Positions 3,175-5,024 of a stretch of DNA of 64,000 bases are shown piece after piece (position 1 is the first letter of the stretch; each line of letters begins with the position of its first letter). Source of the stretch: an uncultured Planktomarina sp. (GTDB lineage Bacteria > Pseudomonadota > Alphaproteobacteria > Rhodobacterales > Rhodobacteraceae). Below the pieces are notes generated by a model, which searched no databases, had not been told where the DNA came from, and saw only the letters and a program-made list of their open reading frames with translations. Position numbers and translations under genes: made by a program. The DNA lies in the NCBI GenBank assembly GCA_905182455.1, contig CAJJBJ010000002.1, forward strand, positions 620,001-684,000, given 5' to 3'.

Positions 3175-3669
3175 ATGGTTGATCGCACATTATTCATTGA
3201 AGCCATGCGCCATGTTGCGCAATCGGTCACAGTTGTGACGACGATCGGTGAAAATGGGGCGACTGGGGCAACTGTGAGCGCATTTTCTTCCCTCTCCGCA
3301 GATCCACCTTCCGTTTTGGTTTGTCTGCGCTCCGATAGCCGTATTGGCTTGGCCGTGGCACGCAATCAGGTATTCTGCGTGAATGTCTTGCCCGAAGGTG
3401 CAGCCGCATTGGCAGAACGTTTTTCCGGCCGGTTTGATGTCGAACAACCAGACCGCTTTGGTGCAATCGACCATGTTGAGGGACCAACGGGACCACTTCT
3501 GTCCGGCGCCACAGCCTTTGAATGTACTTTGGATAAAGTTATCACCCATGGCAGCCATGACATTTGTATAGGTAATGTCACAAAAGTCACAAAGCGCGGT
3601 ACCAGCCCCTTGGCCTATATGGACGGCGGCTTTAAGGTCATACGGCCACAGGCAAAACTTGAAGAGTAA
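3175..3669 (+). CDS. Flavin reductase domain protein (HpaC-like)
   Basis: Small NAD(P)H:flavin oxidoreductase-type protein, 164 residues, one flavin reductase-like FMN-binding split-barrel domain. The stretch VAQSVTVVTTIGENGATGATVSAFSS and the later PPSVLVCLRSDSRI and FCVNVLPEG are hallmark positions of the family. Such enzymes give reduced FMN or FAD to a separate monooxygenase; no monooxygenase partner is adjacent. I chose the ATG at 3175 because it gives the usual family length and has AGGACA about nine bases upstream; the frame is open up to 2824 but the extra residues are not family-like. Immediately downstream is the decayed znuB end. Confidence 0.82.
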   Translation: MVDRTLFIEAMRHVAQSVTVVTTIGENGATGATVSAFSSLSADPPSVLVCLRSDSRIGLAVARNQVFCVNVLPEGAAALAERFSGRFDVEQPDRFGAIDHVEGPTGPLLSGATAFECTLDKVITHGSHDICIGNVTKVTKRGTSPLAYMDGGFKVIRPQAKLEE

Positions 3670-3682
3670 TTACTCTCACGGA

Positions 3683-3865
3683 TCACCCGCGCCCAAATAT
3701 GGACCGCAGAGCAAATGATAAAGCAAACATCAGTGCTGCAGTACAAACAATAGACGGGCCGGTCGGGGTTTCGAACCACAGGCTTGCTTGTAAGCCCCCC
3801 AATGCAGCCACCACAGCTGCAGATGTGGCCCAAAGCACCATGGCTTCAGGGCTCCGCGCCCGACT
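3683..3865 (-). pseudogene. znuB: znuB remnant: C-terminal end of a zinc ABC transporter permease
   Basis: On the minus strand a frame ending at the TGA 3683-3685 reads RARSPEAMVLWATSAA, then GGLQASLWFETPTGPSIV and a final hydrophobic helix. This matches the C-terminal end of ZnuB/metal ABC permeases (ARSPE...ASLxFDTPTGPSIV). A TAG occurs 11 codons before the internal ATG and nothing ZnuB-like is found upstream. Only about 60 of some 260 codons survive, so this is a 3' remnant. It stands back to back with the znuA remnant, as in the usual divergent znuA / zur-znuC-znuB layout with the middle removed. Confidence 0.72.
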
Positions 3866-3869
3866 TGAA

Positions 3870-4212
3870 TCTCTCTAAGCTGCCACCAATGCTAGCAGAA
3901 CACGACGGATTACCCTATTTTGCCCATCACACTGGACTGCGAATTGCACAGACCGTTCACAAATCCCATGACACCACCCCAAGCATCAGGGATATTCGCG
4001 ACCTGCAAACCAGCGTCGAACAAGAGGCAATCACATGTGTTCTGTCTGATCCCGGCTCAGATGGGAGATTGTTGAGCACAATTTTCGGAGCCAAAGGTTT
4101 TAGCGCTGTGCCCGTAGTTATCCTGGGGGATGGTCAAGACCTTGGCCCTGCCTATTATAACCGCTTGCTCACGGGGCTTGCAGCGGCAATTCAAAGTTGC
4201 ACCAACGGCTAA
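3870..4212 (+). pseudogene. znuA: znuA remnant: C-terminal part of a zinc-binding ABC receptor
   Basis: The plus-strand frame ending at TAA 4210-4212 reads LPYFAHHTGLRIA, then SIRDIRDLQTSVEQEAITCV, and ends GDGQDLGPAYYNRLLTGLA. These correspond to the C-terminal half of ZnuA (YFExRFGL..., PSPARLAEIR...ITCVFAEPQ, and DPLGxDLEPGPxLYxxLLxxLA). Signal peptide, His-rich loop and the N-terminal metal ligands are absent. The open frame back to 3784 enters znuB sequence antisense and is not coding. No obvious start codon with a ribosome site exists, so I call it a pseudogene. Confidence 0.7.
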
Positions 4213-4283: not shown

Positions 4284-5024
4284 CTACATCGCAGCCATGA
4301 CCTCGTCGCTCACTTCAAAGTTTGCTGTGACCCTTTGGACGTCGTCGTCGTCTTCCAAAGTATCAATCAGCTTCATTAACTTTTCCATACCCTCAAGATC
4401 CAACTCCGTGGTCGTTTGAGGCAGCCAAATCAATTTCGCACTTTCTGGTTCACCCAATTGGGCTTCCAGCGCAGAGGAGACCTCATTCAAATCAGTATCA
4501 GCACAGAAAATTGCGTGCCCATCTTCGCTTGACTCCACGTCTTCAGCTCCGGCCTCAAGTGCGGCCATCATCACCGTGTCTTCATCGCCAACAGACACAT
4601 AATAAGTCACCTGACCTTTGCGCTCAAACATGAAAGACACAGAGCCGGTTTCACCCAAATTACCGCCGCATTTGGCAAATGTACTGCGCACGGTTGAGGC
4701 GGTGCGGTTGCGGTTGTCAGTCATCGCTTCCACGATCACAGCCACGCCGCCCGGCCCATAGCCCTCATAACGGATTTCGTCATAGGAATCTGCATCCCCG
4801 CCTTGGGATTTTTTAATCGCTCGATCAATCACGTCTTTTGGGACTGAGACTGATTTTGCTTCTTTAACAGCCATCCGCAGCCGTGGGTTTTTCTCTGGAT
4901 CCGGGTCGCCCATTTTGGCAGCCACAGTGATCTCTTTGGCCAGTTTCGAAAAAAGTTTCGACCGCACTGCATCCTGGCGACCTTTACGGTGCTGGATATT
5001 TGCCCATTTTGAATGGCCTGCCAT
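4284..5024 (-). CDS. yebC: YebC/PmpR family protein
   Basis: 246-residue member of the YebC/TACO1 family, the normal length. The N-terminus [18 protein letters not shown] is diagnostic. Family members were long annotated as DNA-binding regulators; several are now known to act on the ribosome and ease translation of proline-rich stretches, so the annotation as transcription factor is uncertain. The chosen ATG at 5022-5024 begins the conserved N-terminus and is preceded by a GGGGG-rich ribosome site; the frame extends 20 codons upstream without similarity. In other Rhodobacterales yebC often lies near ruvC; here it is alone, between the znu remnants and an SLC13 permease. Confidence 0.93.

Follow-up and report, generated by a model that had tools for sequence, protein, structure and literature searches.

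Probable remnant of a divergent zinc-type ABC transporter locus flanked by yebC and a flavin reductase gene in a Planktomarina genome

A stretch of 64,000 nucleotides from an uncultured Planktomarina species (contig CAJJBJ010000002.1, positions 620,001 to 684,000; hereafter the window) carries the 3' ends of two genes of zinc-type ABC transport, with a flavin reductase gene on one side and yebC on the other. The two pieces are very probably a pseudogene leftover of a divergent zinc-type ABC locus after an internal deletion. The site comprises the following features:

3178–3669, plus strand: flavin reductase gene (PF01613, E 3.7e-31), a landmark common to this site in relatives
3683–3868, minus strand: 3' end of a znuB-type permease gene, about 60 last codons, stop included (PF00950, NCBIfam ZnuB)
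3857–3866, no strand: junction of both gene ends, the putative deletion scar, uncertain by about 10 bases
3865–4212, plus strand: 3' end of a ZnuA-type receptor gene, 115 final codons and stop (PF01297)
4284–5024, minus strand: yebC gene, the second landmark of the site, with proteins 84–95% identical in 16 genomes of the genus

In a Pfam profile search, the permease fragment matched positions 207–257 of the 258 of PF00950 (ABC-3) with 32.3 bits (E 9.5e-8; curated cut-off 20.1 bits), and the receptor fragment matched positions 161–261 of the 263 of PF01297 (ZnuA) with 36.7 bits (E 4.1e-9; curated cut-off 29 bits). These scores bear out the original prediction, which had named the fragments as the ends of znuB and znuA, and the lengths and coordinates given there were also correct. 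The first match is confined to the final 51 profile positions, with 1–206 missing and the membrane domain incomplete; the second is confined to the C-terminal 101 positions, with 1–160 missing, so that there is no complete two-lobe receptor, and the fragment has neither a signal peptide nor the N-terminal lobe. Among the NCBIfam models, ZnuB was the top match of the permease piece (E 4e-10) and AztC that of the receptor piece (E 6e-7), which also matched the ZnuA model (E 0.008) and MntC-type receptors; the scores of both pieces lie far under the full-length cut-offs, as expected of fragments. Sequence matches to PDB entries were weak (E 0.01–0.03), all of them to periplasmic zinc-binding proteins or ZnuA. 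Neither frame contains an internal stop, and each terminates at its own stop codon. The pieces meet head to head at about 3857–3866, where ZnuB similarity can be followed as far as about 3857 and the start of the ZnuA frame lies at or before about 3878, and the frames touch at 3865–3868.

In the remaining ZnuA lobe, the HDAY motif retains its HD. The Asp that the ZnuA of intact relatives conserves in the DPLG motif is replaced by Val in this genome (G000) and by Val or Ser in the sister species G017 and G018. Since the replacement is found in the remnants of all three, this version of the receptor may have been unusual already before the losses.

G000 is a draft genome of 2.12 Mb in 11 contigs, 95.8% complete with 0.25% contamination, and the two fragments are its sole matches to PF01297 and PF00950. 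No match to the ZnuC of the relative G011 was found in G000 at E<=1e-20, the matches of most relatives being at E<=1e-90. No member of the ZIP family was found in G000, and the same method found one member, in just one of 20 genomes of the genus. Only two Fur-family genes are present in G000; in znu-bearing relatives an extra, low-scoring Fur gene adjoins znu, and G000 lacks this Zur-type third Fur. With no ZnuA, ZnuB, ZnuC, ZIP protein or third Fur elsewhere in the genome, the originally predicted loss of high-affinity zinc uptake through known importers is well supported within the limit of the approximately 4% of the genome that is missing. The cell probably lives without ZnuABC-type zinc import and uses lower-affinity or unrecognised uptake instead, a zinc phenotype that we infer from gene content. 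For the zinc-independent L33 that had been placed nearby, a crude motif scan of the window gave no L33-like frame.

The flavin reductase gene was found beside yebC in ten relatives of the genus by DNA matching. At this same site, three sister species (G018, G005 and G017) have pieces of these genes in a more advanced state of decay; the remnant is therefore not a trait of one strain, as had been supposed. The homologous pieces at the sister sites are riddled with stops and frameshifts, the frames of G000 being more intact. In G018, the ZnuB tail is frameshifted and is directly followed by the last approximately 32 residues of the same ZnuA; in G005, the ZnuB tail adjoins a run of N; in G017, the ZnuA piece contains stops and a frameshift, and there is no clear ZnuB tail. 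The ZnuA piece of G000 is 56% identical to the decayed G017 copy. On a tree of yebC and flavin reductase, G000, G017 and G018/G005 cluster with weak support.

The intact locus of the genus, in which znuA is divergent from zur-znuC-znuB, lies at a different genomic place. The remnant has in common with this ZnuABC/Zur locus the families PF01297 and PF00950 and the orientation of the gene ends, but it consists of 3' ends only, without znuC, zur, the receptor N-lobe and the permease core. Its back-to-back arrangement is what the proposed removal of the middle part would leave of a znuA / zur-znuC-znuB locus, a layout that is intact in relatives. In sequence, the remnant is far from the ordinary copies of the genus: its ZnuB is 42–48% identical to them over the intact C-termini and its ZnuA 24–27%, whereas the ordinary ZnuB proteins of G002, G004, G005, G008 and G015 are 85–89% identical to the G011 copy, and those of more distant members of the genus 55–72%. 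Moreover, G005 carries both the intact ordinary locus and the remnant at the flavin reductase–yebC site. Given its different position, its much greater similarity between close species, and its presence alongside the remnant in G005, the ordinary znu locus of the genus is probably not what collapsed at this site. The prediction of a collapsed znu locus thus holds as to the type of transporter, and probably not as to its being the ordinary one. In G000, the ordinary locus is entirely missing, and the simplest reading is that a second, divergent znu locus lies in ruins there and that the ordinary locus was lost separately. A tree of the short ZnuA piece is in line with this reading, though not decisively.

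It is improbable that the remnant is instead the ordinary locus, relocated and decayed at a fast rate. The gene order is identical, and the tree test is not firmly against this explanation: placing the ZnuA piece, which is short, within the ordinary clade of the genus gave an AU p of 0.09 without the aberrant copy of G010 and of 0.03 with it. Since this result hinges on the inclusion of G010, more weight was given to the co-occurrence in G005, which comes close to a relative with both loci intact. Relocation is also opposed by the open, third-position-biased frames and by the gap between the two ranges of ZnuB identity, which decay alone does not explain.

Relatives of the divergent version were sought more widely. 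A single-sequence scan of 84,980 species genomes revealed no intact relative of the remnant ZnuA, and an alignment scan of the same genomes found the decayed copy of G017, a MAG from Fram Strait, only. The top ZnuA match among 248 genomes of the family was 37% identical, and a scan of viral contigs with the YebC from beside the remnant gave no match.

The differences between the remnants bear on the timing of the losses. Between G000 and G017, the ZnuA pieces differ at 31, 28 and 67 of 113 first, second and third codon positions, respectively, and between G000 and G018 the ZnuB pieces differ at 13, 14 and 31 of about 58. Neutral decay has no three-base period, and the third-position excess thus shows that most of the divergence arose under selection, with the genes mostly constrained following the species split. 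Set against intact ZnuA C-termini of similar synonymous divergence, replacement divergence is about doubled (pN 0.256 versus 0.125), an excess consistent with late loss on each of the branches; by a very rough estimate, one tenth of the path would have been unconstrained, a value that is indicative only, with synonymous sites near saturation. Under simulated neutral change, the joint chance that both G000 frames remain stop-free, calculated as the product of the per-frame values, was about 0.45 at 0.05 substitutions per site and about 0.06 at 0.2, which indicates a fairly recent loss. Taken together, repeated, fairly recent and independent losses appear more likely than one old deletion.

A single ancestral collapse before the species split, after which the 3' pieces were selected as short expressed proteins, now in decay in the sisters and perhaps in use here, could also account for the two open frames in G000 and for differences from G017 and G018 mostly at third positions, and yet we regard it as improbable. 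A junction possibly common to G000 and G017 speaks for such a collapse in the restricted version of a shared-junction test, where 41 of 2000 shuffles reached the score, but the wider version, with 207 of 2000, gave no signal. Furthermore, the ends of the pieces differ by sister, from the short ZnuA stretch of G018 to the missing clear ZnuB tail of G017, and a promoter has no room between the two head-to-head starts. No function is known for an isolated C-lobe of the receptor or tail of the permease, and there is only a slight chance that a collapse predating the split left the ZnuA C-terminal lobe and the ZnuB C-terminal segment on their own under selection, maybe still in use in G000. An assembly artefact, with two contig ends misjoined over a real znu locus, is very improbable even for a draft of 11 contigs, given that collapsed remnants also occupy this site in genomes assembled separately, the position of the junction inside a 936 kb contig, and the failure to find ZnuA, ZnuB and ZnuC pieces or a third Fur gene elsewhere in the genome.

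According to the pseudogene account, which we prefer, the ancestor of the G000 species and its nearest sisters would have carried znuA facing zur-znuC-znuB between the flavin reductase gene and yebC. In the G000 lineage, an internal deletion would have taken out znuC and zur together with the 5' parts of znuB and znuA, leaving the two 3' ends, and the sister lineages would have lost the locus separately and late. The content of the deleted middle and its removal in a single event are deduced from the intact layout of relatives; the single deletion originally proposed is plausible, although the searches yielded no intact copy of this version. With the signal peptide and N-lobe of the receptor, most permease helices and the ATPase gone, neither piece should be able to act as a transporter, and transport is not expected. 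Several observations do not sit easily with this account: an intact copy of the divergent version was not found among the genomes searched, the G000 frames are more intact than those of the sisters, late loss in several sisters, none of which retains the locus, is a coincidence that needs explanation, and part of the G000 genome is missing. The process itself is ordinary reductive gene loss, repeated, and involves no new mechanism.

Phylogenetically similar roseobacters are known to differ in their metal uptake genes, and only half of the SAR11 genomes contain znuA (Hogle et al. 2016, PMC4771312). Compared with this patchy distribution, the present case adds a half-deleted locus together with further stages of decay in sister species. 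Zinc, metals and znu are not mentioned in the paper on RCA-cluster genomes (PMC10675870), nor are zinc, znu, trace metals and metal transport in that on 653 Roseobacter genomes (PMC12661815). Among ten well-completed genomes, intact ZnuA or ZnuB is absent in G000, G001 and G017. Repeated loss of high-affinity zinc import is thereby documented inside one genus of small-genome marine roseobacters; if it is real, the znu-less species should rely on other zinc sources or require less zinc. The locus is not a new system, and its value is that of a useful case of reductive evolution caught part-way.

Some features of the ordinary znu loci of the genus were also recorded. The ordinary ZnuA of G002 (G002:C17:2595-3480) is split into two frames matching profile positions 1–100 and 83–263, possibly by a frameshift or a sequencing error. 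The ZnuA of the znu locus in G010 (L139 4736–5998) is aberrant, its C-terminal part lying on a very long branch off the genus copies. In G008 (L135 8060–10804), three more genes adjoin the ordinary znu locus; the last matches cobW/COG0523, and the other two look, by eye, like a DUF1007 protein and a NicO-type permease. This group is possibly a zinc cluster that was lost along with znu.

The flavin reductase–yebC site has other contents elsewhere in the genus. In G014, G009 and G007, it is a mere short spacer. In G011, it holds a different gene (L063, about 830–1890), which is intact there and resembles a methyltransferase by eye only; copies of this gene are interrupted by stops in G001 (L065 815–1760) and G002 (L066 880–1980), and a short leftover is present in G004. 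Repeated gain and loss of genes seems to take place at this site.
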